Source of the DNA: Pseudomonadota bacterium
GTDB lineage: Bacteria > Pseudomonadota > Alphaproteobacteria > Rickettsiales > UBA3002
NCBI GenBank assembly: GCA_040384265.1
Contig: JAZKJM010000001.1
Coordinates: 186,001 to 250,000, forward strand
Reading direction: 5' to 3'
Length of the DNA stretch: 64,000 nt
Shown here in pieces: positions 4,992 through 40,326 of this stretch (the stretch's first letter is position 1; each line of letters opens with the position of its first letter). The translations under genes and the position numbers were made by a program. Below the pieces are notes generated by a model. The model was not told the DNA's origin and did no database searches. It worked only from the letters and a program-made list of their open reading frames with translations.

Positions 4992-6652
4992 TTCATCGCC
5001 AGTTTAACGCTATCCGACGAACGCGGTTGCGGGGTGGCCATGGCGGCGAGCAGGGCTTTGTCTTTGCCGTAAATGTCGCGGGTGAAGTGCGGGCGGCCGC
5101 TGCTATCGACCCAGCTCGTCCAATAGACCAGATGCACCGGCATCGGCGTGATTTTCACGGTTTTTGACGTAGCGCTATCGTAAGACGCATCGATTTTTGC
5201 TTCCGACCAACCTTCGCTTTGCAGCAGGAACTGGGTGAACGCCCTGGGATCGCCCAAACGCACGCAGCCATGGCTGAGGTCGCGATCACTGCGGGTGAAT
5301 ACGCCGCGGTTGGAGGTATCGTGCAGGTAGATATTATCCGAATCCGGAATCGTGAATTTCACTTTTCCAAGTGCGTTGCCACTGCCGGGATTCTGGCGGA
5401 TGGCGTAGTTGAAATTGCCATGGCCGACGGATTCCCAATCAACCGCGGTCGGGTCCACCGCTTCGCCATTGCTGACGACGGTGAAACCGGCGCTGGCCAA
5501 ATAGCCAGGGTTTTTGCGGATTTTCGGCAGCATTTCGTTCACCGCGATTTTGGCGGGCACGCCCCAGCTTGGGTTGAACACCACATCCGTGATGGCTTTG
5601 CTGAACATAGGCGTCGGGCTCGCGGTTTTGCCAACGACGACATTCATCTCCATCTGCTTGCCACCGGCGACGGCGGTGAGCTGGTAGCTGGGGATGTTGA
5701 CGAGCACATAACGGTCGCCGAGGTCACGCGGCATCCAGCGCATGCGCTCCATGGTCATGGCGATTTGCTCGATGCGTTTGCTGACTGGCACGGCAAGCGC
5801 GGCCTGCGTGCTGGCGCCAAGCACCCCATCCGCCTCGATGCCGTGGCGCTGCTGGAATTGTTTGACGCCTTCGACAATCGCTTCGTCATAGGTCAGGCTG
5901 TCGGTGCTGGTTTTTTTCATGTCACCGGTGATGGTGAGCATCTCGCGCAGGGAGGCCACGCGGGCATCGCTCATGCCGGGCTTGATGGGCTTGCCGACGG
6001 TAAATTCCGGCCAGCCGCCGTTTTTGGCGATTGTCTGGTAATCGGCGAGCATGGTTTTCATGGTCGCATAGGGCGCGGCTTGCGGGGTCAGGCTGGCGAG
6101 GTAGCCCGCCGTGTCGCGCGTCGCGGCGGCGGCGGTGAGCATGGCGGCCTGTTCAGCAGTGGAAAGCGCGGCGATGCCGGTGTTGGCTTGCGGGCGCACA
6201 GTGCCGCGATTCATGGTCGTGGCGTAACGCAGCACGGCGTTGCTCATCAGCATATCCAGCCCAACGCGGCGCGCGGTGGCTTGCTCCGCCGTGCCGCGCG
6301 GCATGCTGTGCAGCGTGCGGATGGTGCGGGCGGCGAACAGGTTCGCATCCAACCCCTGCTCGCTGGCAGCGGTGATGACATCCAACGCCTTACGGGCGCG
6401 GCGGGTCAGGCCGGAGGAATCCACCCACAGCAGCTGGTTGCCGTTCGCGCTATACACCTCACGCAACGCCTCGGTGCGGATAGTAGTATCGGCGATGGTG
6501 ACGCTTGGTTGCTTGAGCGACTGGGCGAGATAGGCGCTGGTGGTATCGGCATCGTCGCCGGCGACCGCATATTGCGTGGCGACAATGGCAAGCGCTGCAA
6601 TGGCAACGAAGCCGCGCGCGAAGGTGGCGAATTTAGAGGAGTGCCGTAACAT
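4988..6652 (-). CDS. periplasmic L,D-transpeptidase, LdtD/YcbB family
   Basis: A 554-aa exported enzyme that makes 3-3 meso-DAP cross-links in peptidoglycan. It has an N-terminal signal peptide (FARGFVAIAALAIVATQYAVA), the helical scaffold seen in YcbB (region TTIRTEALREVYS), a peptidoglycan-binding type 1 domain (VKQFQQRHGIEADGVLG) and a C-terminal YkuD catalytic domain with the motif LSHGCVRLGDP holding the nucleophilic Cys. The length is near that of E. coli LdtD. The ATG at 6652 is chosen over a TTG at 6664. It converges on the MepK-like gene, so the likely synthase and hydrolase of 3-3 cross-links lie tail to tail. Confidence 0.9.
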   Translation of the reverse strand: MLRHSSKFATFARGFVAIAALAIVATQYAVAGDDADTTSAYLAQSLKQPSVTIADTTIRTEALREVYSANGNQLLWVDSSGLTRRARKALDVITAASEQGLDANLFAARTIRTLHSMPRGTAEQATARRVGLDMLMSNAVLRYATTMNRGTVRPQANTGIAALSTAEQAAMLTAAAATRDTAGYLASLTPQAAPYATMKTMLADYQTIAKNGGWPEFTVGKPIKPGMSDARVASLREMLTITGDMKKTSTDSLTYDEAIVEGVKQFQQRHGIEADGVLGASTQAALAVPVSKRIEQIAMTMERMRWMPRDLGDRYVLVNIPSYQLTAVAGGKQMEMNVVVGKTASPTPMFSKAITDVVFNPSWGVPAKIAVNEMLPKIRKNPGYLASAGFTVVSNGEAVDPTAVDWESVGHGNFNYAIRQNPGSGNALGKVKFTIPDSDNIYLHDTSNRGVFTRSDRDLSHGCVRLGDPRAFTQFLLQSEGWSEAKIDASYDSATSKTVKITPMPVHLVYWTSWVDSSGRPHFTRDIYGKDKALLAAMATPQPRSSDSVKLAMN

Positions 6653-6722
6653 AAAACTACCCAATCGTTAGAATGCCTATGAGGCCATTCTATCGCGGAA
6701 GGGTTAAATAAGTTTTAAGCGG

Positions 6723-7979
6723 CTAACGCGCGGCGCGCAGATGGGCCAACGCCAGGAGTTTACTGGCTTCCACGGCGGGCTGGTCGAAGGCATTGATGCC
6801 TAAAAGATGCGCCGTGAACATAATTTCGAGCGAGCCGTGCATGAGCAATGCCCCGAGCGTCATTTCGTTGAGCTTAGGGATCGCAAAGCTGCGCAGCGGG
6901 GCGCCGCTTTGAATGAGGGTGGTATTGGTGGCAAGCTGCTCAGCCATCAGCAAATCGCCCAGCGTATGGCCGACGAGATAGGCCAGCCGCGCATCCGTCT
7001 CGCCCGGAAACTCGATGACGGGCCCCTGCCCTTTGCTCTCCTCGACGATGAGGGCGGTGAAGAGCTTGTCCTTGGGCCCATCGAGATAAAGCTGCAGCTG
7101 GCTGTGCTGGTCGGTGACGCCGCGGCTGGGCACGAGCGTGCTGGCGCGGTCGCATTTGCCCAGGCTCTCGCCCCAGCACTGGCGGAACCAGCCCGCAAAC
7201 CCGCCGAGGCGGTCGCAATAATGCATCAGCACCTGAATGCTGACCTGCTTTTCGCTGAGCGCGAGGTGGAGCGCGGCGCTCTCGGCCGCATCCTGCGCAC
7301 GCACGGCAGCGGCACCGGCGCGCAGCGCGCGGATATCGAGGCCAATGGCGGCGGCTGGAATAAGGCCAACGGCGGAAAGGATGGAAAAACGCCCGCCGAG
7401 ATCCACATCATGCGCCAACAGGCGGAAGCCGTGAGTGGTGGCAAGGCGATGCAGCGGGTTGTCATTGGGAATGGTGATGACGAAGAAATGCGCCGCATAA
7501 TCCGCCACCGCGCGGCGTGCATGGGCAAGGAAAACGCCCAACGCCGCCAGGGTTTCAACCGTGTTACCGGATTTGCTGATGACGAGAAACGCCGTGTCGC
7601 GCCAGACGAGGCTATCGAGCAATGCAGTGAAGCTATGCGGGTCGATGTTATCGACAAACCGCAGCGTAAGTAGCCCCGGCGCGCGGATGCTGGCAAGCGC
7701 CTCGCCGCTGAGGCTGGAGCCGCCCATGCCAACCACCACCAGCGTGCTGAAGCGGCCAGCGATATGGGCGGCGATGGCGTCAATCTCGGCAAGGTCATCG
7801 CTGCGGGTCGGCAGTGCGAGGATGGGTGCAGCTTCGCGTGGTGGGTTGGCGAGCAGCCCGGGCTGCGCGGCGGCAAGCGATGCGCGCCAGAAATCATACC
7901 GCCCACGGTTCGCGCCATGCACGCCGACGGCGTCCTCGAAGGCGGTGTCGATGGTTTGGGTGTAGAGTCCGTGGGTCAC
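6723..7979 (-). CDS. pgi: glucose-6-phosphate isomerase
   Basis: A 418-aa cytosolic isomerase of glucose-6-phosphate and fructose-6-phosphate with two SIS domains. Visible signatures are VVGMGGSSLSGEAL near residue 85, VISKSGNTVETL (sugar-phosphate loop), GGRFSILSAVGLIPAA and the C-terminal GINAFDQPAVEASKLLA. It is shorter than the 549-aa E. coli enzyme. The start is a GTG immediately after the TAA of galE, so the two are translationally adjacent. It is third in a minus-strand run with the initiating sugar transferase and galE, linking central hexose phosphate to UDP-sugar supply for polysaccharide. Confidence 0.93.
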   Translation of the reverse strand: MTHGLYTQTIDTAFEDAVGVHGANRGRYDFWRASLAAAQPGLLANPPREAAPILALPTRSDDLAEIDAIAAHIAGRFSTLVVVGMGGSSLSGEALASIRAPGLLTLRFVDNIDPHSFTALLDSLVWRDTAFLVISKSGNTVETLAALGVFLAHARRAVADYAAHFFVITIPNDNPLHRLATTHGFRLLAHDVDLGGRFSILSAVGLIPAAAIGLDIRALRAGAAAVRAQDAAESAALHLALSEKQVSIQVLMHYCDRLGGFAGWFRQCWGESLGKCDRASTLVPSRGVTDQHSQLQLYLDGPKDKLFTALIVEESKGQGPVIEFPGETDARLAYLVGHTLGDLLMAEQLATNTTLIQSGAPLRSFAIPKLNEMTLGALLMHGSLEIMFTAHLLGINAFDQPAVEASKLLALAHLRAAR

Positions 7980-8966
7980 TTAGGCCGCCTGCGATGGGTT
8001 CGATTGGTGCCACTGGTAGGCGGAACGGACGATCATTTCAATATCGGTGTGCGCAGGCGCCCAACCGAGCGCGGCGCGCGCGGCGCTGGCGTCTGCCACC
8101 AAACGGGTGGGGTCGCCCGCCCGGCGCGGCGCAAACCGGTGCGGCACGGGATGGCCGATGCGCGCGAAACACTGCAGGATATCGCCAATCGAGGTGCCGA
8201 TGCCGTTGCCGAGATTATAGGCCGCGGATGGCGCGCCGCGGAGCAACGCTTCCACCGCGCGCACATGGGCCGCAGCCAGGTCGCTGACATGGATATAATC
8301 GCGGATGGCGGTGCCGTCGGGCGTGTCGTAATCATTGCCGAAAATTTCCAGCGGCGCAATGCGGCCAAGGCTGGCAAGGCAGGCGCGCGGAATCAGGTGC
8401 GTTTCCGGGTCATGCGCTTCGCCGATGTCGCCATCCGGCGAGGCCCCGGCGGCATTGAAATAACGCAAGGCCATAAAGTTTGGGCCACCGGCGGCGGCGA
8501 AATCGCGCAGCAGCTGCTCGAACATCAGCTTCGACCAGCCATAGGGGTTTTTCGGCTGGCAGGGATGGGATTCATGGATCGGCACCGCCTGCGGCTCGCC
8601 GTAGACCGCCGCCGTTGAGGAAAACACGAACGCGCGCACACCGCCGATGGCAAGGGTGCGCAGGAAGCGGATTTTTTTGGCAAGGTTATTGTCGTAGTAA
8701 TGCAGCGGATCACTCACGGAAGCGCCGACTTCGATGGAACCGGCAAGGTCGATAACAGCGACGATGCCATACTCCGCGATGGTGCGCGCGACGGCCTCAC
8801 CATCCGACACGCAGGCGCGCACCAGCGGGCCAAAACGCACGAAATCGGCATGGCCGGCGGAAAGATCATCCAGCGTGACGGGGGTGTAACCGGCCGCCGC
8901 CAGCGCTTTGCAGACATGGGCGCCGATATAGCCAGCGCCACCGGCGACGAGGATTGCCTGTGCCAT
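7980..8966 (-). CDS. galE: UDP-glucose 4-epimerase (ExoB-like)
   Basis: A 328-aa extended short-chain dehydrogenase that interconverts UDP-glucose and UDP-galactose. It begins with the NAD-binding Rossmann motif ILVAGGAGYIGAHVCKAL, and has FSSTAAVYG (catalytic Ser/Thr) and the YxxxK pair in NPYGWSKLMFEQLL. Later RDYIHVSDLAAAHVRA and YNLGNGIGTSI are typical GalE signatures. The start at 8966 places the glycine-rich motif at the N-terminus; upstream codons are not conserved-looking. It lies 4 bp after the polyprenyl sugar transferase gene. That enzyme family often uses UDP-galactose, so galE probably feeds it. Confidence 0.95.
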   Translation of the reverse strand: MAQAILVAGGAGYIGAHVCKALAAAGYTPVTLDDLSAGHADFVRFGPLVRACVSDGEAVARTIAEYGIVAVIDLAGSIEVGASVSDPLHYYDNNLAKKIRFLRTLAIGGVRAFVFSSTAAVYGEPQAVPIHESHPCQPKNPYGWSKLMFEQLLRDFAAAGGPNFMALRYFNAAGASPDGDIGEAHDPETHLIPRACLASLGRIAPLEIFGNDYDTPDGTAIRDYIHVSDLAAAHVRAVEALLRGAPSAAYNLGNGIGTSIGDILQCFARIGHPVPHRFAPRRAGDPTRLVADASAARAALGWAPAHTDIEMIVRSAYQWHQSNPSQAA

Positions 8967-8970
8967 GCGG

Positions 8971-10449
8971 CTAGTAAGCGCCACGGCGCTTGAGCAGCGC
9001 GGGCACGGTTTTGCACATGATCGCCACATCGTGCCAGAGCGACCAGTTGCGCACATACCAGCTATCCATCTGCACGCGCTGGTCGTAGGTCACATCGTTG
9101 CGGCCGCTGACCTGCCACAGGCCCGTGATGCCGGGGCTGACGCGGTAATAATGGGCGATGTCGTGGGCATATTTCGCCACTTCACCGGCAACGATCGGGC
9201 GCGGGCCGACGAGACTCATCTCGCCTTTCAGCACGTTGAACAATTGCGGCAATTCATCGAGGCTGGAGCGACGCAGGAACGCACCAAAGCCGGTGATGCG
9301 CGGATCGTTCTTCAGCTTGTGATCGGCCTCCCACTCGGCGCGGGCGGTCGGGTTTTCGGCCAGATGCTGGGCGAGAATAGCCTGCGCGTTATGCACCATC
9401 GAGCGGAATTTGAGGCACTGGAACACCGCGCCTTTTTTGCCGATGCGGGCATGGCCGAAGAACACCGGCCCGCCATCGCGCTTGGTGAGCACGGCAAGTG
9501 CCAGCATCAGCGGGCTGATGAGCAGCAGCAAGGTGCCCGAAACGGTAATATCGAACAGGCGCTTCACCAGCCGCGGCAACGGCTGTTCGAGGCCGCTGCT
9601 ATAGGTCAGCAATTTCACGTCGTGGCTGAAGAAATATTGCGGCACCATGTCGAGCACCGGCAAATGGCGGCGCGGCGGCGAGATGGAAAACGGCACCGAA
9701 TCGCGCGTCAGCTGGGCGATGGGCTGGGTGGCCTGATCGAATTCCGTGCCATCCAGCGCGATGACGACGTAATCGACCTCATGCTCGGCACACAGCCGCT
9801 CCCACGAACGGCCCGCCATCAGGAAGGCTTCCGGCAGGTTGGCGATGCGGGCGGTGATGTCGTAGCCAAGCCCGGTTTCCGATTGCAAGGCGGCGCTGGT
9901 GTCAGCGGCCGTTTGCCCGTTGCCGACAAGCATGGTGGCGACCCGCCAATGGCCGCTGCGGCGCAGCAGCGCACGGTAAAGCCCGCGCATGGCGAGGATG
10001 CCGACGCAGGCAAACATCCACCCGGACATCAGCCACAGGCGTGAAAATTCGTTCTTCGCGGCGAATTGCAGGAAGCCATCCACCAGCATGGCGATGGTGA
10101 GTGCGGTGATGACGTTTTTCAGCTCCAGCCAGAAATTCATGCGCACGCGGTAGTGGCCCTTGTGCTGGAACCAGACCAGCGTGATCGCGGCAACGCTGAG
10201 CAGGCCGATGGCGCGCATCGAGGTCATGCCATAAAAGGGGCTTGCCATTTCGCGGCCGTAATAGAGGCTGTTGATGAGGGCCGCCATGCTCCACGAGCAG
10301 AGGAAGCCGGCCAGCAGCGCCAGCATATCTGTCGCCAGATAGCCGCGCAGCACATGGTTGAAACGCCGACGCGGCGCGCCCTGAATGGGGGTGAGCGACG
10401 CCGAATCCAGGGCCTCGCTATTGGCATGCGATTTGGGCTGCGGCCCCAT
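8971..10449 (-). CDS. polyprenyl-phosphate sugar-1-phosphate transferase, WbaP/ExoY type
   Basis: A 492-aa polytopic initiator of glycan assembly that transfers a sugar phosphate to undecaprenyl phosphate. The N-terminal half has several membrane segments ([19 protein letters not shown] and following) and a CoA-binding-like central domain. The C-terminal catalytic domain holds [44 protein letters not shown] and [12 protein letters not shown]. This full-length architecture matches WbaP rather than short ExoY. With galE 4 bp downstream, galactose-1-phosphate is the most likely substrate (inference). It diverges from the exoL-exoA-exoM-like operon across about 260 bp. Confidence 0.9.
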
Positions 10450-26821: not shown

Positions 26822-27628
26822 CTAAAGCGGATCATACTCACGCAGGCGCTGCAGTAAGGACTTCTCGACGACCGGGATAACCGGCATCGGCATCGACTCG
26901 TTATAGACGCAGATGATGTCCGGGCCACGGCGTAGGGTGAAGCGCGACGTCACACGCTCGACCACGATGTAGTTGCCCCGTTTACGGAAGTTGATCAGTT
27001 CCTCATTCCCAGCGGAATCAACGCGGAAAAAGGCCGGAACATCGGCGTTTTTGTCGCGGAATTCAAAATAGGTGAATTCGCCGTTATCGAAAATGCGGAT
27101 CGGCTCGATCACGCTCGAACCACGGATGGAGTAATTGAAATTGAACTTCTCGGGGTGCTTTTCGATGTCCGGGAATTCCTCGAACTCGTTGCCGTAATCA
27201 ATCGCCGAAGTGTCGGCCTGCGGATAAACGAAACGGTAGGAGAAAACCATGTTTTTGTCGCGGATGTCCTGCGTTTCCTCGGCATGCAGCTCGAACAGGT
27301 AGGAGCGCTTGTCGGTGATGACCGTCATGTTGGTCATCGCATTTTGCTCGATTGGCTTAAGAAACAGCCGGTTGCCCGATGGATTGATGAGCCATGCCGT
27401 CGAATCGCCGATGGAAACGGTCTGGATTTTCTCGCCCTCCTCCAGCTCGATGGCGGACTGGTAGCTGTAATGGCCAATGAACTGGTAAACCTCGTTGGGG
27501 CTGTAGCGCACGGTGCGGATACGACTATCGGTGGCGATCGCGCGCGGGGTCTGCAGCGCCAGCGCTGGCGCCACCGCCAGCAGGCCAAGCATCAGGCAGA
27601 CAGCCTTACTTAAGTTCATTGCTTTCAT
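26822..27628 (-). CDS. virB9: VirB9/TrbG/CagX-family type IV secretion protein
   Basis: A 268-aa periplasmic protein of the type IV secretion outer-membrane core. A signal peptide (VCLMLGLLAVAPALA) precedes the family pattern RIRTVRYSPNEVYQFIGHY, then GEKIQTVSIGDSTAWLINPSGNRLFLKP and NMTVITDKRSYLFEL. The C-terminal domain has TYFEFRDKNADVPAFFRV and GNYIVVERVTSRFTLRRG. In known systems VirB9 sits with VirB7 and VirB10 around the pore. Only VirB8 is beside it here, overlapping by 23 bp; the rest of the system is outside the window. Confidence 0.9.
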   Translation of the reverse strand: MKAMNLSKAVCLMLGLLAVAPALALQTPRAIATDSRIRTVRYSPNEVYQFIGHYSYQSAIELEEGEKIQTVSIGDSTAWLINPSGNRLFLKPIEQNAMTNMTVITDKRSYLFELHAEETQDIRDKNMVFSYRFVYPQADTSAIDYGNEFEEFPDIEKHPEKFNFNYSIRGSSVIEPIRIFDNGEFTYFEFRDKNADVPAFFRVDSAGNEELINFRKRGNYIVVERVTSRFTLRRGPDIICVYNESMPMPVIPVVEKSLLQRLREYDPL

Positions 27629-28322
27629 AACTAATTACCTGAAAATGTGGATCCTGGAATTCAACCTCGTCGCTGCTCTCGCCTTGCGGGTCGACGACGG
27701 CGAGATCAGTATAGGTGTATTGCATCCGGGCCGTCCATCGCGTTTTCACAGGGGCGCTGCTACCGGTGGTTTCGGCGGTGAAATCAACTTCTGCGCTCAT
27801 GGGGCTGGTATTGGTGTTGATCTGGATTGCGGTGACGGTGATGTTGCGGGCACCCGTCGCACCAAGGGTGGCGGCGGGGCTGGTCGGGTTAGTGGCGGTG
27901 AAGGCCTTGCTGAACGCGCCATACACCGCATCGTTCGACTGAGCGCGCACGAAGGCGGCGCCACTGCCATAGGTGCTCACGCTGTAGCCCTCACGGGCAG
28001 CAACGTAATGGACGATAAAAAACCGCAATAGCGAGCTGGTGAGGGATTTCTCCGGCTCTTTCAGCACTTCAAGGCGGGGGATAATATCATCGATCCGCGG
28101 GCCGCTGCGGATGAGCAGGCCCGGACGACTGACCAGTGGCAGCATAGAATTAACAGCAATCAGGCTGGCGATGGCGACCACCACCGAAAGGGCGGCAATA
28201 AGCAGGAAGAAACTCCGCTCGGAAATGGGGCCAATATAGACTGCCTGATACCAGGCACGCGCTTCATCGAAATAGGTGCCTTTGCGCATCATTTCCGAGA
28301 TTTTTTGTGCTTCGTCATCCAT
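27606..28322 (-). CDS. virB8: VirB8-family type IV secretion inner-membrane protein
   Basis: A 238-aa bitopic protein: a short cytoplasmic tail with EARAWYQAVYIGPISERSFF, one membrane helix near residues 38-60 (LLIAALSVVVAIASLIAV), then a periplasmic NTF2-like domain. Family features are RFFIVHYVAAREGYSV and, near the end, TRWTARMQYTYTDLAVVDPQG. VirB8 links the inner-membrane complex to VirB9 and VirB10. It is first in the virB8-virB9 pair. Its start is 102 bp from that of a divergent large secreted protein. Confidence 0.85.
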   Translation of the reverse strand: MDDEAQKISEMMRKGTYFDEARAWYQAVYIGPISERSFFLLIAALSVVVAIASLIAVNSMLPLVSRPGLLIRSGPRIDDIIPRLEVLKEPEKSLTSSLLRFFIVHYVAAREGYSVSTYGSGAAFVRAQSNDAVYGAFSKAFTATNPTSPAATLGATGARNITVTAIQINTNTSPMSAEVDFTAETTGSSAPVKTRWTARMQYTYTDLAVVDPQGESSDEVEFQDPHFQVISYESNELK

Positions 28323-28351
28323 TTGACATCAATCTCTAAAATACTTACAAT
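28323..28351 (+). promoter_or_regulatory. sigma-70-type promoter of the secreted repeat protein
   Basis: TTGACA, a 17-bp spacer, then TACAAT: one base short of consensus. Transcription would begin near 28358, about 67 nt before the TTG start. It is one of the best housekeeping promoters in the window. Confidence 0.75.
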
Positions 28352-28424: not shown

Positions 28425-31400
28425 TTGGGGATTCCGAAATACAAAAGCATAATTGCCGCCACTTTGCTGTTGATTTCCGCTGGTGCGGCCTATGCACAGG
28501 TTTGCAAGGAAGCTAACCCCACCAATTCCAGCGGCACCGCCAATCTCGATTGCGACATGACCTACCGCGACACGGTCGTCGCCTGCACCGGCAACAACCC
28601 TGGCGATATCGCCGGTACCGGCCCTTCCTGTCCGCGCAAACCGATGCCGATGATCCAGACCACGGCCTCGTCGTATATCTCGGATTATTCGCCCTATCTG
28701 TTCGCCTATCCGCGCGATCCGGATGATGCGAACAAGCCCTATTCCGGCGCGTTCGGTATTGGCACGCAAGGGGATGCGAACAGCAACTACCAGCTGTTTG
28801 GCAACTCGGCGGATGGGGCGACACGCCTGGCCTCCTGCACGGCCCAGATCACGGTGCCAAACCCAACGACCGGCAACCCGACGGAAGACGCCAAACTGGC
28901 ACGCCTGCAGCTCGATAACTGCACCAACCAGTATATCCTGAATTCTGCGATGTATCCGTTCCAGAAGGAAAACGTGCAGCTGCTCGCCGGGGATGATCCC
29001 TCGAACCCGAACAAACGCATTTCGCTCGCCGATAGCTGCCAGCCGTTGCGCACGACCAATGTCACCGCGAATGAATATTCGCCGTCGGATTACCTGAAAG
29101 TGGCATGGATCAAGACGCTGCAGGACCCCGGCTACCGCAAAACGACCGGGGTGTTTAAGAATATCCCCTGCGTGGCGACAGGCATTCCGTGCGACCGCGA
29201 GCCGCATTTGCCCGATGGGGTGACGATCAACAATCCCATCGCACCGCCGGATCCATTCCCGGATGTGCCGCTTTCGAGCCTCGCGGCGGTGAAATACGAA
29301 GAGATTATCGACCCAACGCACCCCTTCTCCCCCCGCTGGGACTTTTTGCTGACCGACCGCGAATATTCCAAACCCGCCATGAGCTGGGCGGATGCGGCGG
29401 CGTTCAAGGGGGTCATCGCCAATTACGTCGCCATGCAGACCTATATGAGCAATACGGATAATGCCGTGTTCTGCGCTGGCATCAAAAAGGCCGATGGCGA
29501 ATCCGATCAGAAAAAGAAAAACGACCTGCTGGTGCCGGTGGATGTGCTTGAGTTCCGCCGCAAAGCGTTTGAAAATGGCCTCTTCCGCCGCACGGTTTAC
29601 AACACTGCCTGCTATGCCCACAAAGAGCTGAAGCCCACGCTGTATGATTTCGTGGGCCTTGCCGCGACGGCGGTTTCGTTCTGCTATTATTTCTACTGGA
29701 CGGGCAATATCTGGAACCCGCCCTACGTCGCCTTTGAATACGAAGATTGCTGGACGTGTTTTGGCCTGTTCGGCAAAGTGGATGATGAAATCCAGCACCC
29801 GCCATGCACCACCAACTATCTCGGCTCGGATGGCAAAATGTGGCTGTTTCCCGGTGGCCTGAACCTTTATAGCCGCACCGCCTTGTGCAACTACCCGCTG
29901 CAACCACGCAAGGGCGAATACGCGATGGATAAGCTCTGCCGCGACCTGCGCAAGCCCTATACGCAGATGAACCGCCTCAAGATGCGCTACCACAACCCCG
30001 ATGACGCAAATGACCCCAATGGCGATAACGTGGTGCTGAAAGATGGCGTGGCCGAGGGCTTCAGCTTCAAGGAATATTTCGGCAACCATATGCCCTATCC
30101 ACGGCTGTGGGACACCGGCACGGCATTGCAAAAAACCAACAGCTCGGATTCGGGCGACCAGCCACCGCTCGACACGACCGGCCAGTATACTGCCATTGTC
30201 GGTATCGGCCGTGAAGCCGCTGCAAAATCGGCTGCCACTCCGGCGGCGCAAGCAACCTACACCGACCAGCGCTGCCTTGCCGGCGGCTGGGGCGGCCCTG
30301 CCCCCCACCTGCCCTTTATCAAAGGGGTGCCAACCAGCTTTGGCGGGGTGAAGATCTATATGCCCGACCCGATCAGCAGCTGGACGGAAACTAAACTTTA
30401 CCAGACCCGTGCGCTGCGCAGCGTGGGGCTGAGCTGCCTTGTGCGCTATGAAAAGATTTACAAACCCGGCGGTGCCGAGAACATGCTGATGCTGGCCGCA
30501 GGCGGTGAATGGTCGCAGATCCTCATCTCGAAATGCCCACGCACCGGGCCCGGCCGGACCGGGAATTGCCAATACATGTCGCTCAAGGATTATGCGGATT
30601 CCGGCAGCCCGGCCAATGACAACAGCACTATCTACATGAAGCAGCTGGAGAAGCAGGCATGGCCTAACAGCTGGCGCGGCTATATGGCGTCGCCGGTGTG
30701 GGACAACCAGTTCCCCAATTTCGGCGGGCCGGGCACACCGGGCGGCAGCGCGAGCGGCCTTACCGCGACACTGGCAGGCCAGCTATCCAATGCCGCCACT
30801 GTCGCGGCGACCAACGCCGCGAACCAAGCCGTTAACAGCGCCACAGGTGCTGTAACCGGGACCATCAACGGCGCTACCAGAGTTGCCGTGAACGCCGCGG
30901 GCCAAGTGATTAACACCGCCACCGGCACGGTGATGGGAACCGTCAACGGCGCTGTCGGCCAGGCCAACCAGATGGTGATGACCACCACGGGCCAGATCGT
31001 CAATTCAACGACCGGGGCGATCGTCGGCAATATCCGAGGGGCGACGGGCCAGTTGACCGGCACGATTAGCGGGTTCACGAATTCAATCACCGCGCCTGTC
31101 ACTAACGCGATCGGCGAAATCACCAGCGCGCAACAAAACGTGACGAATACCGTGAATGGAGCAGTCAACACTATCACCGCGCCGATTACTGAAGTCACCG
31201 GTCAGATTAATGGCACCATCAACGAGGTAAACGGCACCATCAACGGGGTGAACAATACCATCAATGGCGTAACGAACACGGTTAACGGTGCGGTGAACAC
31301 CGTGAACAATACGGTGAACACCGTCAATAACGTGACGAACACGGTGAATAACGTCACCAATACCGTGAACAATGTTGCCAACGGCATAGGCAATGTTAGC

Positions 31401-32561
31401 GGCGCAGTATCGACCGTCACGAACGGCATAAGCGGTGTTACTGGTGCCGTATCCGGTGTCACCAGCGGCATTTCCGGCATCACCGGCGGGATCACCGGAT
31501 CGCTGACTGGCATGACCGGGGCACTTACCGGCATCACCGGCAGTCTCTCGGGTATCACCAGTACACTTTCGGGGCTGACCGGCACGCTGTCGAGCCTGAC
31601 CAGTGGCCTTGGCAGCATTACCAGCAGCATCAGCGGCTTTGTCAGTGGGTTTGCCGGCAATGCCATGTCCGGCATGCTTTCGTTTATCGGGTTCGATGGG
31701 TTCCTGTCGGCGTTCAGCGCCGTTTCCAACCTGTCGTCGATTTACGACATGATCAGTAACCTCGGCGGCTCGGTGCTGTCGGGCCTGAGAACCAGCATCA
31801 CCAATTTCGCCAGCCAAACGCTGAATATCGGCGGGCTTGGCACAAACATCGTGGCGGGCCTGAACAACGCAGTGGCCGGCGCAGGCACGCAGGTTGCCAA
31901 CATCGCAAGCTCGGTCACGGGCGTGGCGACGGGTGCCATCGGCAGCGCCGCCTCGACACTCGGGGCGCAGGCATCCGGCCTGCTGACATCGGGCATCAAT
32001 AGCGCCACCAGCGCCCTCACCGGCGGCACGGCAACGCTGATGGCACAGGCGGCAAACCTTGCTAACCAGCAATTGGCAGGCACCATTGCAGGCCAGCTCT
32101 CGGTGCTGGGCGACACAGCGACTTATTCGTTCGGCCTCGATAAGGCGCAAAAAGGCGATATTGTGCTGATGCCCTATGGCCCGAACAACAACCCCATTCG
32201 CCCAGGTCTGGCTAAGCTGGCGATGGTGATCGAAGTGAACCTGCCGGGCACCTCGGACTGCGCGACGCGCGGCAACTGCTATGTGAAGGTGCTCGAGCCC
32301 GATAACGGCAAATGGCCGGATGCGTGCGGCACCACCGATACATGGGGCGAAATGAAATCGCGCTACTATTACAAGCCGGGCAACCTGCCAACGGATGCCC
32401 AGCAGGAATTCAGTCGCCTGAACTATACCAAGGATTGCGAAGAAACGAAATTCTCGCAATGCGAGATGTCGTCATGGGCGTCGCTGCGGCTCTACCGCAT
32501 TCGCAACGATAACCGCAATGGGTGTACTCAAGAAAATGCGGCCAATTGTGCAGGTGAATAA
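28425..32561 (+). CDS. large secreted repeat protein of unknown function
   Basis: A 1378-aa exported protein of no recognised family. It has a signal peptide (SIIAATLLLISAGAAYA), a Cys-containing N-terminal region of about 770 residues with a hydrophobic/aromatic patch near 405-450, a low-complexity tract (about 780-1080) rich in Asn, Thr, Val, Gly and Ser, another hydrophobic stretch near 1065-1100, and a C-terminal domain from about 1238. That domain has AQKGDIVLMPYGPN and AKLAMVIEVN, faintly like CHAP/NlpC proteins, but without an obvious catalytic Cys-His pair. The start is TTG, with no competing in-frame ATG near the signal peptide. It lies head to head with virB8-virB9 and is followed by a second secreted protein 1 bp later. 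Confidence 0.85.
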   Translation: MGIPKYKSIIAATLLLISAGAAYAQVCKEANPTNSSGTANLDCDMTYRDTVVACTGNNPGDIAGTGPSCPRKPMPMIQTTASSYISDYSPYLFAYPRDPDDANKPYSGAFGIGTQGDANSNYQLFGNSADGATRLASCTAQITVPNPTTGNPTEDAKLARLQLDNCTNQYILNSAMYPFQKENVQLLAGDDPSNPNKRISLADSCQPLRTTNVTANEYSPSDYLKVAWIKTLQDPGYRKTTGVFKNIPCVATGIPCDREPHLPDGVTINNPIAPPDPFPDVPLSSLAAVKYEEIIDPTHPFSPRWDFLLTDREYSKPAMSWADAAAFKGVIANYVAMQTYMSNTDNAVFCAGIKKADGESDQKKKNDLLVPVDVLEFRRKAFENGLFRRTVYNTACYAHKELKPTLYDFVGLAATAVSFCYYFYWTGNIWNPPYVAFEYEDCWTCFGLFGKVDDEIQHPPCTTNYLGSDGKMWLFPGGLNLYSRTALCNYPLQPRKGEYAMDKLCRDLRKPYTQMNRLKMRYHNPDDANDPNGDNVVLKDGVAEGFSFKEYFGNHMPYPRLWDTGTALQKTNSSDSGDQPPLDTTGQYTAIVGIGREAAAKSAATPAAQATYTDQRCLAGGWGGPAPHLPFIKGVPTSFGGVKIYMPDPISSWTETKLYQTRALRSVGLSCLVRYEKIYKPGGAENMLMLAAGGEWSQILISKCPRTGPGRTGNCQYMSLKDYADSGSPANDNSTIYMKQLEKQAWPNSWRGYMASPVWDNQFPNFGGPGTPGGSASGLTATLAGQLSNAATVAATNAANQAVNSATGAVTGTINGATRVAVNAAGQVINTATGTVMGTVNGAVGQANQMVMTTTGQIVNSTTGAIVGNIRGATGQLTGTISGFTNSITAPVTNAIGEITSAQQNVTNTVNGAVNTITAPITEVTGQINGTINEVNGTINGVNNTINGVTNTVNGAVNTVNNTVNTVNNVTNTVNNVTNTVNNVANGIGNVSGAVSTVTNGISGVTGAVSGVTSGISGITGGITGSLTGMTGALTGITGSLSGITSTLSGLTGTLSSLTSGLGSITSSISGFVSGFAGNAMSGMLSFIGFDGFLSAFSAVSNLSSIYDMISNLGGSVLSGLRTSITNFASQTLNIGGLGTNIVAGLNNAVAGAGTQVANIASSVTGVATGAIGSAASTLGAQASGLLTSGINSATSALTGGTATLMAQAANLANQQLAGTIAGQLSVLGDTATYSFGLDKAQKGDIVLMPYGPNNNPIRPGLAKLAMVIEVNLPGTSDCATRGNCYVKVLEPDNGKWPDACGTTDTWGEMKSRYYYKPGNLPTDAQQEFSRLNYTKDCEETKFSQCEMSSWASLRLYRIRNDNRNGCTQENAANCAGE
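30780..31660 (+). repeat. internal low-complexity repeat tract in the secreted protein
   Basis: Within the 1378-aa gene, short imperfect repeats encode units such as NTVNNVT, GAVNTVN, TGAVTGT and later GISGVTG/GSLTGMTG. The tightest part is 31195-31400, where a 7-residue unit recurs almost without interruption. The pattern would give a long beta or rod-like stalk (inference). Confidence 0.8.
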
Positions 32562-32562
32562 C

Positions 32563-34464
32563 ATGGCAAGAGCGTGGGTTCTCGTGATGGCACTGCTTGG
32601 CGCAAGCCCGGCCATGGCCGCGACAGTCGATTGCGGCGCTGTGAAAAATATCGATGGCAACACCAGCTACAAAATCCAGACGACCGACGCCAAGCAGTGC
32701 ATGCTGCGTGGCTTTGACCCGGCAACCAGCCTGAAACCCGACGGCGGCAAAAGCAGTGGCATCAAATCCGCCGGACAGGGCTATCATTACGGTGGCATGA
32801 ATGCGCCAGACAGGCCACCGGGCAAAACCACCGGCACCGCCAGCATCAGCAGCGGCGCCATGAATGCGAGCTGTAATTTTCCGCCCACCAAAGCAACCGA
32901 TATTTTCGATGCAAGCTTTGTCGGCGGGCTCACCTCCCTCAAGGCAACAGACCTGCTCAACTCAAACATCACATCGAAACTCACCCCAAGCTTCAAAGCC
33001 GGATCCTGCTACAAGTTCCTGCAAAACCAGCTGAGCGACAACAGCAACGGCAATGCCGCCGGGTCGATACCCATTTCCGATGGCGGCCTCTGCCCGGAGG
33101 ATACGGATAGCACCGGGCTTTTCGGCGTGAAACGCAGTGTCTCAAACGGCGGCACCGCCTTACGCCCGTGCGGTGGGATGCTGCCAGTCACGACCTATGA
33201 CCTCGTGATGAACCGCAACCCGGACTACATATTAAGCACCGAGAACGGTGGCTATGCGATGTGGGTCTATCGGAGATCCACGACTATTTTTCCACGGATC
33301 ATCAATGGCAGCAATGCTAACAGCACCTCCCACGAAGGCAGGCTGCCGCGCTGCCTCGCTGAACAGCACATCGAGACCGTCGGCGATGGCGATCAGAAGA
33401 TTTACTGGGTAAAAACCGTCGATCTTACCCCGCCCGTCGCACAGATGATTACGTATACTGCGAGCCACACGACCATCAACATCCGCCTGCAGCCGCGCGA
33501 GAGCATGCGGGCGGACTTTATCCCGGCGTACGACGATTCCGCACCGGTATTCGATCTGGTGCTGCCCATCGACCCGACAACCGGTAAACCGGAAGTGCCT
33601 CAGGAATTTATCACAACGTCGGGTGAGTCCTGTGCGAGCGACACCAGCGGCGTGTGGCGGGTTCCGGTGAACAATCAGGAAATCACGCTACACTCGGCCA
33701 CCAGCGCCGGCTGCGAAGGGCCGCCGACATTGCCGACATGCTCCTCCTGGGCCCAACGCGACACTACTGGAAGCGAAGCAGGCTGCAACGACCCTGCCGC
33801 CCCCTCGACGGCTGATTTTGTCGCAGCATCGCTGCCCACATCGCTGGCCAGCGTGGATGTTGCCAGCACCTGCCCCGCAGGCACCACCTCCGCCGCGCCG
33901 GATGCCAGCTGCGATGTGGTGACCATCTATCCGAAAGGCACGTTTGCCGATACCGTCTGCGACGGCAAGAAGCAGTATGCCGTGCTGAACCGCCCCAACC
34001 TCTATTACCCACCCAATACGACATCCACCCTCTATAAGATGACGGGGCGCACGGCGCTGATGGCCACCGTTGTAGACGGTAGCACGCTGTTCATGCAGTC
34101 CAACGCGACGATCAGCCTTTCCCCAACCGCACCGGCAGTGAAACTGAACGAAGGCGGCTTCATTAAAATGAAGGACGGCTCGATCCTGATCGCCAGCCCA
34201 CCGGCGGTAGTGAACCCGAGCACATTCACCGTGGTTATGGAACAAGGTGGCCAGCTGGTGAGCAGCGGTGGCAGCCAGATCCAGGGCTTCGACCCGGGCG
34301 CGACCTTTGTGATTCCGACAGCACTGCAGCTGTCGCCCATCCAGATTCGCGTGGGGCGTAGCATTATCCTGCCCGCGGGCTACATGATTCCCACGATGCC
34401 GGTGATGGCGTCGGATCCGTTGGCGCCTTATATGCGCTTACCGGCGGATAAGCCGCCGTCATAG
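32563..34464 (+). CDS. secreted protein of unknown function, partner of the repeat protein
   Basis: A 633-aa exported protein with a signal peptide (ARAWVLVMALLGASPAMA) and several Cys residues in the mature part. No family was recognised. Distinct blocks are DASFVGGLTSLKATDLLNSN, YILSTENGGYAMWVYRRS, and a C-terminal beta-rich region (VDGSTLFMQSNATISLSPTA onward) that resembles repeated hydrophobic strands. It starts one base past the stop of the 1378-aa gene with AGGTG upstream, so the two are one operon. Its 3' end overlaps the convergent murU gene by 37 bp. The position suggests a surface complex with the repeat protein. Confidence 0.85.
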   Translation: MARAWVLVMALLGASPAMAATVDCGAVKNIDGNTSYKIQTTDAKQCMLRGFDPATSLKPDGGKSSGIKSAGQGYHYGGMNAPDRPPGKTTGTASISSGAMNASCNFPPTKATDIFDASFVGGLTSLKATDLLNSNITSKLTPSFKAGSCYKFLQNQLSDNSNGNAAGSIPISDGGLCPEDTDSTGLFGVKRSVSNGGTALRPCGGMLPVTTYDLVMNRNPDYILSTENGGYAMWVYRRSTTIFPRIINGSNANSTSHEGRLPRCLAEQHIETVGDGDQKIYWVKTVDLTPPVAQMITYTASHTTINIRLQPRESMRADFIPAYDDSAPVFDLVLPIDPTTGKPEVPQEFITTSGESCASDTSGVWRVPVNNQEITLHSATSAGCEGPPTLPTCSSWAQRDTTGSEAGCNDPAAPSTADFVAASLPTSLASVDVASTCPAGTTSAAPDASCDVVTIYPKGTFADTVCDGKKQYAVLNRPNLYYPPNTTSTLYKMTGRTALMATVVDGSTLFMQSNATISLSPTAPAVKLNEGGFIKMKDGSILIASPPAVVNPSTFTVVMEQGGQLVSSGGSQIQGFDPGATFVIPTALQLSPIQIRVGRSIILPAGYMIPTMPVMASDPLAPYMRLPADKPPS

Positions 34465-35162
34465 GCCTGCGCTTTTTCGAGGCCTGCAAGGTCGCCGACA
34501 TTGAGCCATGGGCCGTCATGCACCACGGCGCGGATGCGGCTGTGCCAGCCATCGGCCTCTTGCGAACGTTTCCAGAGCGTTGAGAGCGAGAATGCCCCTT
34601 GCGGGCAACCGGCGAACACGCGCGGGTGGATGATTTCGACCCCGGTGAAGATATAGGGCGCGGCTTCGCCGTCGCGCGGGCGGCGGATGCGTCCCTGCTC
34701 ATCCATGATGAAATCACCGCGCGCGCCGTCCCAGCCGATGGCCTGGGCGATGGGAACGAGCAGCATCAGGAAATCCACATCGTCGCGCCAAGCCTGTTGC
34801 AATGTGTGGATGGGATGGATGGGCATGGGCGGAAAAATCGCGTCGCTGTTGAGGGCGAGGAAGGGTGCATCGCCCAGCAGTGGCAAGGCTTTGGCGATGC
34901 CGCCGCCGGTTTCGAGCGGCCCGCCCTCCTCGCGCGAAAACCGCACGGATGGTTCGCCCACCAGATGGGCTTCGAGCTGCTCGGCGAGGTAGGACGTGTT
35001 GATGACCACCGAATCGATCCCGGCATCGCACAGCCAGTCGAGGCACCAGTCAATCAGCGGTTTTCCGGCGACGGGAATCAGTGGCTTGGGCATGCTGTTG
35101 GTGAGCGGGCGCATGCGGGTGCCAAGGCCTGCGGCGAGGATAATGGCGCGCTCCAGCCTCAT
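34428..35162 (-). CDS. murU: N-acetylmuramate-1-phosphate uridylyltransferase
   Basis: A 244-aa nucleotidyltransferase of cell-wall recycling that makes UDP-MurNAc from MurNAc-1-phosphate. It has AIILAAGLGTRMRPLTNSMP and KPLIPVAGKPLIDW at the N-terminus, LETGGGIAKALPLL, and ALNSDAIF with the metal-binding Asp. The start at 35162 overlaps the amgK stop by 4 bp. Pairing with an AmgK-type kinase and TsaE is the usual order in Gram-negative bacteria with this bypass of fosfomycin-sensitive MurA. The identification rests mainly on that context, because the nucleotidyltransferase family is broad. Confidence 0.88.
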   Translation of the reverse strand: MRLERAIILAAGLGTRMRPLTNSMPKPLIPVAGKPLIDWCLDWLCDAGIDSVVINTSYLAEQLEAHLVGEPSVRFSREEGGPLETGGGIAKALPLLGDAPFLALNSDAIFPPMPIHPIHTLQQAWRDDVDFLMLLVPIAQAIGWDGARGDFIMDEQGRIRRPRDGEAAPYIFTGVEIIHPRVFAGCPQGAFSLSTLWKRSQEADGWHSRIRAVVHDGPWLNVGDLAGLEKAQAYDGGLSAGKRI

Positions 35163-36217
35163 GCCGGCAACCCGCCGATGGTAAGGTTGGGCGTGAAACT
35201 GCCGCGCCACGCCAGCGGCACATGCTGCTCGATGAAGCCACGCAGCGGCGCGAGGGCGGGATGGTTGAGATCATGCATAAAATGGGCCCAGACCCGCGGC
35301 AGGTAATCGAGGTAATGGGCCTTGCCGTCGCGCAGGCATAGGCGCGCAAAAATGCCGATGATCTTGGCGTTGCGCTGGGCGGCGATGATGGCATAGCGCG
35401 CCGCAAAAGCATGCGATTCCTCCCCGGTTTCGGTCGCGAACCGGGCGAAACAATCGGCCATGGTCGAGAGCGACACGTCGCGCCGCGCATCCTCCAGCAG
35501 GGAGGCGAGGTCATACGCCGGGTCACCCCACAGCGCGTCCTGATAGTCAATCATGCCAACCGCGCCATGCCCGGTGCGATCCTCCAGCCAGAACAAATTA
35601 TCGGCATGGTAATCGCGGTGGACGAGGCAGGATTGCTTGGGCTGCGCCTGCTGCAGGCAATCGCGCCAGAGGTCGAGATATTCGCCGCGCAAGGCCTGTG
35701 CGCGCTCCAGCCCATAAATTTGTGGCAGGAACCATTCGGCCAGCAACGCTGCTTCACGCAGGTAGACGGTGGTGTCGTAGGGCTTCAGCACCTGCGACAG
35801 CGTTGCCGCATGGGCACGGCTGGCGGTGTGAATGGCCACCAGCGCCTCGGTCGCGGCAAGGTAAATCGCCCGCTCGCGCTCGGGGTGGGCTTTCAGCAAG
35901 CGGGTGAAGGACTGGTCGCCCATATCTTCGAGCAGCAGGAACCCGCCCTCCTCGTCACGCGCGAGGATGCTCGGCACGGTGACGCCGCACCCCGCCAGCA
36001 TGTCAGTAACAGCGATGAAGGGGCGCACATCCTCCCATGGCGGCGGCGCATCCATCAGCACGGCGACGGTGCCTGCGTTTTCCACGCGCTCATAGCGGCG
36101 GAAGGACGCATCGCCGGCGAGGAAATGCCGGGTCGCACCATGCCAGCCGATGCGCTGCAGGAAATCGTCCATATCGGCGCTGCGGTCGGGGCGAATGGCG
36201 GGCAATGGGGTAGTCAT
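35159..36217 (-). CDS. amgK: anomeric N-acetylmuramate/N-acetylglucosamine kinase
   Basis: A 352-aa aminoglycoside-phosphotransferase-fold kinase that phosphorylates recovered MurNAc at C1. Visible are GDASFRRYERVE (nucleotide loop), VLMDAPPPWEDVRPF, LLLEDMGDQSF, the catalytic loop LVHRDYHADNLFWLE and the metal site GMIDYQDALWGDPAYDLASLL. The Asp in HRDYH is the base. It lies between tsaE and murU with 4-bp overlaps at both ends, so the three genes form one translationally coupled unit. Confidence 0.9.
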   Translation of the reverse strand: MTTPLPAIRPDRSADMDDFLQRIGWHGATRHFLAGDASFRRYERVENAGTVAVLMDAPPPWEDVRPFIAVTDMLAGCGVTVPSILARDEEGGFLLLEDMGDQSFTRLLKAHPERERAIYLAATEALVAIHTASRAHAATLSQVLKPYDTTVYLREAALLAEWFLPQIYGLERAQALRGEYLDLWRDCLQQAQPKQSCLVHRDYHADNLFWLEDRTGHGAVGMIDYQDALWGDPAYDLASLLEDARRDVSLSTMADCFARFATETGEESHAFAARYAIIAAQRNAKIIGIFARLCLRDGKAHYLDYLPRVWAHFMHDLNHPALAPLRGFIEQHVPLAWRGSFTPNLTIGGLPA

Positions 36218-37047: not shown

Positions 37048-40000
37048 ATGACCCTGCACAGAAAAAAAACATCGCTGTTTGCCCTTGTCGCCAGTGTGTT
37101 GTTGGCGGCATCGCCCGCCTGCGCGGCGAATATTTCGACCGCGCCGCATAAGGGTTATGGGCGCATTACCTTCAATTTCGACCAGCCCGCCAAGCTGCGC
37201 ATGGCCAATAGCGGCACCACCGCCGAGCTGGTGTTCGATGCGCCAGTCAGCGGGTCGGCCGCCGCCATCAAGGCCGGGCTACCGGGTTATGTCAGCAACG
37301 CCGCGCTTTCGGCCGATAAGAAAACCGTGACGCTGACGCTGAACAAGCCCTACCGGATGCGCCAGTTTGTCAGCGGGGCGACCGTCGGTATCGACCTTAT
37401 CGGCGCCGCGACCACGACGAATGCGCCGGAGGACCTCACCAAGGATGCAACGGCGCAAGCGCCCACGCCGCCCCCTGCCCCCGCGTCCACGCCGGTGGAA
37501 AAGAAACCGATAGCGAAGCCGCCCGTCGCCGTGGCAGTGAAAAAAGTAGAGAAGCCGGTAACGCCACCGAAGCCCACAGCAGAAAAACCCGCACCGGCAC
37601 CGGACCCCATGCTGAGCACCAAAGCGGTGGCGGAACCAGCAGCAGCAGTACCGACGCATGAAGCGACGCCGGTACTGACAACAAAAGAAGAAAAGCCATC
37701 CGCAGACGAACATGCAACGGCGCCCACGCCCCCAGCACCGGTTGCCAAAGCAGAGGAGAAACCGCAAGCAGCACCTGTCGCAGCGGCAGCTGAGCCTGCC
37801 GCCACCGCTCCCGCCAAAGCCGCTAAGACGGAGCCCTTCATCGTCACCATGCGCACGGTGAATGCGGAAACGATCATGCATTTCCCCTGGCAGGCGCGCA
37901 CGGCGGCCGCCGTGTTCAAACGCGCAAACCACCTGTGGGTGGTGTTCTCGCGTGCGGAAAATGTGAATGTGCCGCTGCTGCGCACGGTGTTGCCACGGCA
38001 GGTGGTGAACATCACCCAGTATGCCTATGCGGGTAACACGGTGCTGCATCTGGTGACGGACGGCTCCGTGCATGCACGCGCAGTGCAGCAGGAAGGGAGC
38101 TATCCGTGGAACGTGATCCTGAGCACGACGGCAACCGCGCCCACCCTCGACACCCCCGCCGCCAGCGACAACCTTGACGGCCAGATGCGGCTGGTGCTTG
38201 GCGTATTCGACGTGGCGCCGCCCGTGCGGTTTTACGACCCCGATGCCGGCGACCTGCTGGTGGTGATACCCACCTATGAAAACGGGCGCGGCGTCAGCAA
38301 CGAGCGCAATTTCCCGCAATTCAGCATCCTCAGTTCTAACCAGGGCGTGACACTGGTCGGCCGCGAGGATGGGCTGCGCACGCACACCACCCGCGCCGGG
38401 GTGATTGTCGAGGGCGAGCACGGGCTAGCATTATCAGCCAACTTGCCACTGATCGCGGGGGCGACGGCAATGCCGCTCGCCGGGGCAAGCACCAATTCCG
38501 GCGTGATGATGCCATATGAACAATGGTATGTGCCGCCGGAGCGCTATTTCGATACGCTATTTGAGCGGCTGCGTGCCGTGGCCGCCGCCACCCCCGCCAG
38601 CAAAGCCCAAAGCCTGATGGAGCTGGTGAAGCTCTATCTCGAAGGTGGGCGGGCGGCAGAGGCAAGCGGTGTGCTGAAGCTGATCGCACGCGACCATCCG
38701 GATTATTACCGCGACTATAAACTCGCGCTGCTGAGCGCGGTATCGAACATGATGATGCTGCATTACGACCTCGCCTATGCCGACCTTGCCGCGCCGGAAT
38801 TACAAACGCTCGATGAGGCCATGCTGTGGCGCGAGGCGCTGGCCCTGTATGCCCCGCCAGCCAGTAGCACGCAGTTGCTGGAGCATGGCGGCCCACAGGT
38901 GGCAACCAGTGACACAGCCGCCAACCCCATCGCCCCGGGCGACCAGCCAGCAGCAGCCGCACCGCCGCCGCCCGCAACGAAACCCGTGTTCCGTTTCCTG
39001 AAATACAACAAGCCCTATATCCGTTTTTACCCACCGCGGGTGCGGCAATATCTCGCGGTCATCGCGGCGGATGCCTATCTGGCGGATGGGCAGGACGAAA
39101 AAGCACTCGCCGCGTTCGACACGCTGATTCCCGACGATATCCTCGGGCCGGTCAAGCTGAACGCGGAATATACCCTCGGCATGGTGGCGATTAAAAAGGG
39201 CAAACAGGAGCAGGCGCTGGAAATCCTCGACCAACTGTCGAAGCAGACGAGCGATCCCTACATCGCCGCGCGGGCGCGCTACAGCGCGGCCATGGCGCGG
39301 TTTAAATATGGTTTGCAGACTTCCGAACAAACGACTCAGGCTATCCAGTCCGTGCGCATGACATGGCGTTCGGATGGGCTGGAGCGGCAAATGCTGGTCA
39401 GCCTGATCGATATTTATAAGATCACCAAGCGTTACGCCGATGTGCTGCGCACGCAGCAGACGCTGCTCAACACCTTCCCCAACGACCAGGAAGCGCTGAC
39501 TATTTCAGCCGATATGGGCGAGCTGTTCGCCAACATCTTCCTCGATGGGCTGGCCGATGACATGCCACCGCTCAAGGCGCTGTCGCTGTTTTACGAGTTC
39601 CGCGAACTGACGCCGATTGGTGATCGCGGCGACCGCATTATCCAGCGCCTCGCCGACCGGCTGGCCGCGTTCGACCTGCTCGACCGCGCGACGCAATTGC
39701 TGGAACACCAGATTCAGTTCCGCCTTAGCGGCGAAGTGCGCTCGCAGGTGGGCGCGCGGCTGGCGCTGCTGCACCTGTTCAACCACCGTCCGCAAGAGGC
39801 GCTGAACGTGCTGGAAGTGACGAATTATGGCAATAACTCGCCTGAGCTGCAAAATCAGCGCCAGCAATTGACGGCGGAAGCCCTCACCCGCCTTGGCAAA
39901 AACGAGGAAGCGCTGGGCACCCTGTTCAACGACACCACCCGCCCCGGCGCGCTGCTACGACTGGATATTCTGTGGTCGATGCAGGACTGGCCGAACGTGG

Positions 40001-40326
40001 TGAACCGCGCGGAAGATATCCTCAACGAGCGGCCCGACCTGACGCAAACGCTCAGCCCGCAAGAGACAGAAGTGCTGCTGAAGCTGGCGCTGGGCTATAG
40101 TTTCCAGAACGATAATACGCAGCTGCGCTATTTGCGTGATTATTATTCCGGGCTGATTCCCGACACCGCCTATAAGCAGATTTTTGATTTCATCACCAAC
40201 GACACCACCCCGCTCGACCCCGAAGATTTCGCCATGCTCGCCGCGCAAATCAGCCGCACGGAAGGGTTCCTCGATACATTCAAGGCGAAAATCGCGGCGG
40301 GGAAACTGAGCGAGGCAATTCAGTAG
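37048..40326 (+). CDS. large secreted AMIN-like/TPR-like protein
   Basis: A 1092-aa exported protein. It has a signal peptide (LFALVASVLLAASPACA), an AMIN-like beta domain (residues about 30-130, YGRITFNFDQPAKLRMAN), a Pro/Ala/Lys-rich linker (about 130-265), a second AMIN-like domain (about 267-380, FIVTMRTVNAETIMHFPW) and a long helical TPR-like C-terminal half (about 510-1090) with repeats such as GQDEKALAAFDTLIPDDI and KGKQEQALEILDQLSKQ. AMIN domains bind peptidoglycan or pilus/secretion proteins. It lies 3' to 3' with the fliO-fliP operon. The function is not known; a structural role in the envelope or motility is inference. Confidence 0.85.
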   Translation: MTLHRKKTSLFALVASVLLAASPACAANISTAPHKGYGRITFNFDQPAKLRMANSGTTAELVFDAPVSGSAAAIKAGLPGYVSNAALSADKKTVTLTLNKPYRMRQFVSGATVGIDLIGAATTTNAPEDLTKDATAQAPTPPPAPASTPVEKKPIAKPPVAVAVKKVEKPVTPPKPTAEKPAPAPDPMLSTKAVAEPAAAVPTHEATPVLTTKEEKPSADEHATAPTPPAPVAKAEEKPQAAPVAAAAEPAATAPAKAAKTEPFIVTMRTVNAETIMHFPWQARTAAAVFKRANHLWVVFSRAENVNVPLLRTVLPRQVVNITQYAYAGNTVLHLVTDGSVHARAVQQEGSYPWNVILSTTATAPTLDTPAASDNLDGQMRLVLGVFDVAPPVRFYDPDAGDLLVVIPTYENGRGVSNERNFPQFSILSSNQGVTLVGREDGLRTHTTRAGVIVEGEHGLALSANLPLIAGATAMPLAGASTNSGVMMPYEQWYVPPERYFDTLFERLRAVAAATPASKAQSLMELVKLYLEGGRAAEASGVLKLIARDHPDYYRDYKLALLSAVSNMMMLHYDLAYADLAAPELQTLDEAMLWREALALYAPPASSTQLLEHGGPQVATSDTAANPIAPGDQPAAAAPPPPATKPVFRFLKYNKPYIRFYPPRVRQYLAVIAADAYLADGQDEKALAAFDTLIPDDILGPVKLNAEYTLGMVAIKKGKQEQALEILDQLSKQTSDPYIAARARYSAAMARFKYGLQTSEQTTQAIQSVRMTWRSDGLERQMLVSLIDIYKITKRYADVLRTQQTLLNTFPNDQEALTISADMGELFANIFLDGLADDMPPLKALSLFYEFRELTPIGDRGDRIIQRLADRLAAFDLLDRATQLLEHQIQFRLSGEVRSQVGARLALLHLFNHRPQEALNVLEVTNYGNNSPELQNQRQQLTAEALTRLGKNEEALGTLFNDTTRPGALLRLDILWSMQDWPNVVNRAEDILNERPDLTQTLSPQETEVLLKLALGYSFQNDNTQLRYLRDYYSGLIPDTAYKQIFDFITNDTTPLDPEDFAMLAAQISRTEGFLDTFKAKIAAGKLSEAIQ

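Follow-up and report, generated by a model that had tools for sequence, protein, structure and literature searches.

We consider it somewhat probable that the products of genes 1 and 2 of this Rickettsiales locus are a pair of exported proteins, rich in disulfides, which act for the rvh type IV secretion system (T4SS) at the cell wall, in a role like that of VirB1 or PrgK. The pair lies in the neighbourhood of a second virB8-virB9 pair, its first gene was found only in Rickettsiales among the genomes sampled, and two relatives of the gene 1 protein carry both SLT and M23 domains. Sequence comparison supports a T4SS link together with a putative wall-related function.

The two-gene locus and its genome

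The window, i.e., the whole 64,000-nucleotide stretch that was analyzed, belongs to a 2.0-Mb Rickettsiales genome. Gene 1 (BIG; 28425–32561, + strand) begins with TTG and encodes a 1378-residue protein with a signal-peptide-like N-terminus, and is regarded as a real gene because its homologues within the same genus share 46–54% identity with it. Residues 1–762 (28425–30710, +) comprise the signal-peptide-like start, a Cys-rich N-terminal core, and the first half of a C-terminal domain, in which the motifs SWTETKLYQ, GLSCLVRYEK (containing Cys671), and WRGY are located. Residues 763–1225 (30711–32099, +) constitute a species-specific low-complexity insert (G/T/A/N/S/V) with a heptad VIL pattern, and residues 1226–1378 (32100–32561, +) form the second half of the domain, designated CHAP-like below, with GDIVLM, AKLAMV replacing PHVAYV, and PDACGTT. 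The numbers of cysteines in these regions are 21, 0, and 7, respectively. Gene 2 (32563–34464, +) begins 1 bp after gene 1 and encodes a 633-residue protein having a signal-peptide-like N-terminus and 14 cysteines; an alternative in-frame ATG at 32518 would give a 648-residue product overlapping gene 1. A sigma-70-type promoter-like site (TTGACA-17-TACAAT; 28323–28351, +) matches 11 of the 12 consensus bases, for which the chance expectation was 0.5 sites at a looser threshold. The coordinates, the protein sizes, and the gap to virB8 given in the first-pass annotation were all correct, and its description of a tight two-gene arrangement behind a near-consensus promoter was borne out.

Divergent from gene 1, and separated from it by 102 bp, are second copies of virB8 (27606–28322, −; Pfam VirB8, 3.7e-18) and virB9 (26822–27628, −; CagX, 3.1e-63), the latter of which passes the TIGR02781 model of VirB9. 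On the other side of the pair lie genes for a MurU-like MurNAc-1-P uridylyltransferase (34428–35210, −) and an AmgK-like MurNAc/GlcNAc kinase (35159–36217, −), both named from the best NCBIfam match, which falls under the curated cut-off, and the tsaE of this murU-amgK-tsaE group, whose TsaE match passes its own cut-off. Beyond tsaE, an exported-looking protein of 1092 residues (37048–40326, +) was observed, which had no NCBIfam match and keeps its position in many relatives.

The window's genome contains two virB8 and two virB9 genes. Its main vir cluster is located elsewhere (L065:8746–19266, from VirB2 to VirD4) and encodes VirB2, VirB4, VirB6, VirB8, VirB9, VirB10, VirB11, and VirD4; no SLT gene was found within this cluster. 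Four SLT matches were obtained in the genome, all of them outside the cluster. The VirB8 of another member of the order (L147, family f12) matches a VirB8-like protein, PDB 4o3v, at 7.8e-79, which we take to be RvhB8-II of Rickettsia typhi. This match is one of the grounds for placing the window in Rickettsiales. From resemblance and pairing, the virB8-virB9 pair of the window is probably of the RvhB8-II/RvhB9-I type. The two copies of each gene fit the virB8 and virB9 duplication reported for the rvh T4SS (PMC11077975; PMC10732058), and no counterpart of gene 1 or gene 2 is described in the consulted passages of the rvh literature.

The window proteins gave no meaningful match in PHROGs, PADLOC, NCBIfam, or Pfam, and none in the PDB by sequence profile, so that the earlier statement that neither protein matches a known family holds for direct matches in Pfam and NCBIfam profile searches. 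No PADLOC model of anti-phage defence was matched. The locus was also considered as a phage or mobile element, which was dropped on the grounds of no phage match and a conserved chromosomal order.

Distribution of gene 1 and its linkage to virB8-virB9

Relatives of gene 1 were detected in 43 of the 219 order genomes examined (completeness 80% or more), and relatives of virB9 in 213 of the same 219, which indicates that gene 1 is the variable part. In the class and phylum samples (385 and 398 genomes, partly overlapping), the matches were confined to the window itself, a second genome from Rickettsiales, and a spurious hit; the last, G460 from outside the order, was rejected as a family member on account of nine internal stops. 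In the genomes sampled, gene 1 founds a predicted protein family restricted to Rickettsiales. No genome of families f10, f12, f15, f16, and f20, which are mostly small, was among the 43 carriers. These families are likely intracellular, judging from the small genomes and, for f12, also from the 4o3v match. The carriers look like free-living relatives of the Rickettsia group, and the intracellular-looking families sampled look to have lost gene 1. Given this loss and the degraded wall-enzyme-like domain of its product, gene 1 may specify an overlooked component with which the secretion system handles the wall.

The proposal that the locus is linked to type IV secretion was examined through its co-occurrence with virB8-virB9 in related genomes, and it holds. 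One or both of these genes were found within five genes of gene 1 at 25 of 45 loci, representing 11 family-level groups, and virB8 is divergent from gene 1 at all 23 loci where its orientation could be measured, mostly at a distance of 69–270 bp. Related genomes do not give independent evidence of gene order, and the virB8-virB9 linkage is nonetheless common to the eleven groups. The linked loci are in genomes having an rvh-like T4SS. Gene 1 is hence genetically linked to rvh genes, as a component of the rvh T4SS is expected to be. Homologues that lack such neighbours do occur in f24, f9, f6, and some f5 and f23 loci, some of them at contig edges. The homologues in f24, f9, and f6 weaken the link and do not overturn it, since virB9 relatives are retained in almost every genome of the order.

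The genes murU and amgK function in the recycling of wall sugars. They lie within five genes of gene 1 at 23 of the 45 loci, and 12 of the 45 have both murU/amgK and virB8/virB9 in the vicinity; the murU-amgK-tsaE linkage may be passive synteny. In f24 (L064, L125, L128, L130, and L131), gene 1 adjoins murU-amgK without virB8-virB9, and the genes upstream of it resemble lipid A (lpx) genes by sequence.

Domains of the two proteins

The conserved C-terminal motifs of the gene 1 family are W.ELK.YQ, GL.CI..YEK.FK, WRGY, GDI, HVAYV, and PD.CG.T. Several individually modest lines add up to a region that looks CHAP-like, i.e., of a cysteine peptidase/amidase fold. The Pfam CHAP model matched one full-length member at 4.3e-5 and others weakly, the isolated domains that matched CHAP (PF05257) scored 14–20 bits against the Pfam cut-off of 26, and the window protein itself gave no match to Pfam CHAP. 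Profile–profile comparison with a CHAP alignment using hhalign gave 87% (P 4e-6), as against less than 1% for reversed and unrelated controls. For L045, a close relative of the gene 1 protein, a model was obtained with a pLDDT of 76 and a pTM of 0.82. The best structural matches of the full-length model include NlpC/P60 proteins (Z 4.6 and 4.2), and in a second structural comparison, of the A2 model against 45 chains, the best four were all CHAP proteins at modest Z-scores of 6.0 to 3.9. Foldseek returned nothing significant for both models, and no known fold was found for the N-terminal core in the whole-model structure search. The family shares with CHAP and NlpC/P60 cysteine peptidases/amidases the probable fold, the GD...HVA motif, and, in several members, the Cys and Glu/Asn positions. 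It differs from them in being very divergent, in having long insertions, and in having lost the His in f1, f5, and most of f24. By eye, about 17 members have the His, either in HVAYV or in a variant of this motif, and some relatives keep Cys-His-Glu/Asn. The window copy retains Cys671 and has Lys at the His position (AKLAMV), as the His is lost in its family; because of this loss, the window copy is probably non-catalytic.

Further wall-related domains were detected in relatives. Among 44 members scanned, SLT was found only in L060 and L061; L060 carries SLT (6e-15) and M23 (1.7e-46), L061 also has both, and HxxxD and HxH are intact. These proteins combine M23, SLT, and the CHAP-like domain in one chain, which equals the LytM + SLT + CHAP set of PrgK from the conjugative T4SS of pCF10. 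PrgK is likewise a T4SS-linked wall protein, and the comparison is one of domain sets. Only the SLT domain of PrgK was active in vitro; the CHAP part had no detected activity, and the non-functional domains were able to regulate SLT (PMC11323569). PrgK is Gram-positive and membrane-anchored, whereas the Rickettsiales proteins bear a signal peptide and are Cys-rich, and the window copy, having no SLT match and no M23 domain, retains only the CHAP-like part of the set. The VirB1-type specialised lytic transglycosylases have a wall-opening accessory role in vir-type T4SSs, and VirB1 binds VirB8 and VirB9 according to work cited in PMC2653234; it is a small SLT enzyme, in contrast to the gene 1 family, where SLT occurs in the two members only. 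A signal-peptide-like start was also observed in the family member from L063 (5709–11618, −), a 1970-residue protein which contains a TrbC/VirB2 pilin domain at residues 511–583 (E 9.4e-12).

The tract at residues 763–1225 consists of 21-nt (7-residue) repeats, detected in part as tandem repeats. The first-pass annotation had regarded it as a stalk joining two domains. It lies instead between the two halves of one C-terminal domain and has no counterpart in the same-genus L045 (950 residues) and L048 (884 residues), nor in L049 as far as the fragment covers. Low-complexity inserts of other composition are found at other positions in further members, such as L055 and L138. The absence in congeners and the inserts elsewhere suggest that the tract is a tolerated insertion, which perhaps acts as a surface arm. 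Weak matches to DUF948, Baculo_PEP_C, ZorA, and similar models fall in the tract and were judged to be composition matches. The L138 protein (5378–9562, −) ends in an almost pure Gly and Ser tract at about residues 1190–1395.

The gene 2 protein has a CxxxGxDP-type motif at residue 46 and a beta-rich-looking C-terminus, and is poorly conserved and fast-evolving, yet syntenic. A CxxxGxDPP-type motif occurs close to the start in 10 of 25 second genes, against a background of 12 in 660 ORFs that includes these 10; the motif was picked after viewing these sequences, and the contrast is descriptive. In f24 and f27, the same motif is found close to the C-terminal end of the gene 1 protein, which suggests that this gene 2 motif was fused to gene 1 in these two other families and, in turn, that the two proteins probably act together. 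The fusion link relies on this motif; a search with a gene 2 profile did not pick up the fused domain of L058 at E 10.

Probable role and alternative explanations

In the role that we favour, the gene 1 protein would leave the cytoplasm by Sec export, bind to peptidoglycan and to the RvhB8-II/RvhB9-I subassembly, and create or maintain a wall opening for the T4SS channel. Relatives having Cys-His-Glu/Asn or SLT/M23 would cut the wall. The window copy lacks the His as well as any further hydrolase domain and would most likely be a non-catalytic wall anchor or regulator, comparable to PrgK's degenerate LytM domain and silent CHAP domain, and its repeat insert would be a lineage-specific surface arm.

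The first-pass annotation had suggested an adhesin or host-contact device, with the tract reaching outward from the cell, the C-terminal domain attaching to a second surface, and the T4SS nearby. The signal peptide, the Cys-rich core, the Gly/Thr/Asn/Val tract, and the recurrence of low-complexity inserts in other members are in line with this design, which we nevertheless consider unlikely. The supposed stalk interrupts the CHAP-like domain and is missing in congeners, and the other inserts vary in composition and position. The conserved parts, namely the CHAP-like C-terminus together with SLT and M23 in some relatives, point to the cell wall. Gene 1 is missing from the Rickettsiaceae-like families with small genomes that were sampled, which is likewise a poor fit to host contact. 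Equally improbable in our estimation is that the gene 1 protein is a T4SS substrate attacking the walls of neighbouring bacteria, with gene 2 as its delivery partner or immunity factor. Schon et al. (PMC9352585) proposed that the ancestral rvh T4SS served to kill bacteria, and SLT, M23, and CHAP-like domains are present in the family, resembling the peptidoglycan hydrolase domains of the bacteria-killing T4SS effectors of Xanthomonadales. The family differs from these effectors in its Sec-type signal, which is unusual for such a substrate, and in that no small immunity gene stands alongside; gene 2 is large and has a motif that can be fused to gene 1, unlike an immunity protein. Moreover, the occurrence of one copy beside core genes across many families looks like that of a structural part, and the window copy is without the His.

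Little probability is likewise given to a cell-wall or envelope maintenance protein without a role in type IV secretion, for which the virB8-virB9 neighbourhood would be inherited gene order. The murU-amgK-tsaE linkage, which f24 keeps where virB8-virB9 are not adjacent, speaks for such a protein. The divergent virB8-virB9 linkage, however, persists in 11 family-level groups, several of which share little other conserved order, and the VirB2-like domain in L063 also argues against it.

A wall-facing role in the rvh T4SS leads to a broader proposal, which is possible and which we hold only tentatively. Genes 1 and 2 might represent an undescribed module of the ancestral rvh T4SS on the RvhB8-II/RvhB9-I pair, through which free-living Rickettsiales could pass or attack bacterial walls, and which was lost along with the shift to life inside eukaryotic cells. 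If true, this loss would explain why duplicated RvhB8 and RvhB9 were left without a known partner. Gene 1 defines a protein family that has no Pfam or NCBIfam model, and the pair was previously undescribed. The pair offers a concrete candidate partner for RvhB8 and RvhB9, whose duplication in Rickettsiales is in need of a functional explanation. As an exported pair that is apparently confined to the order and has a wall-enzyme-like fold, it suggests a way, amenable to testing, in which the rvh system may have crossed the wall before intracellular life.
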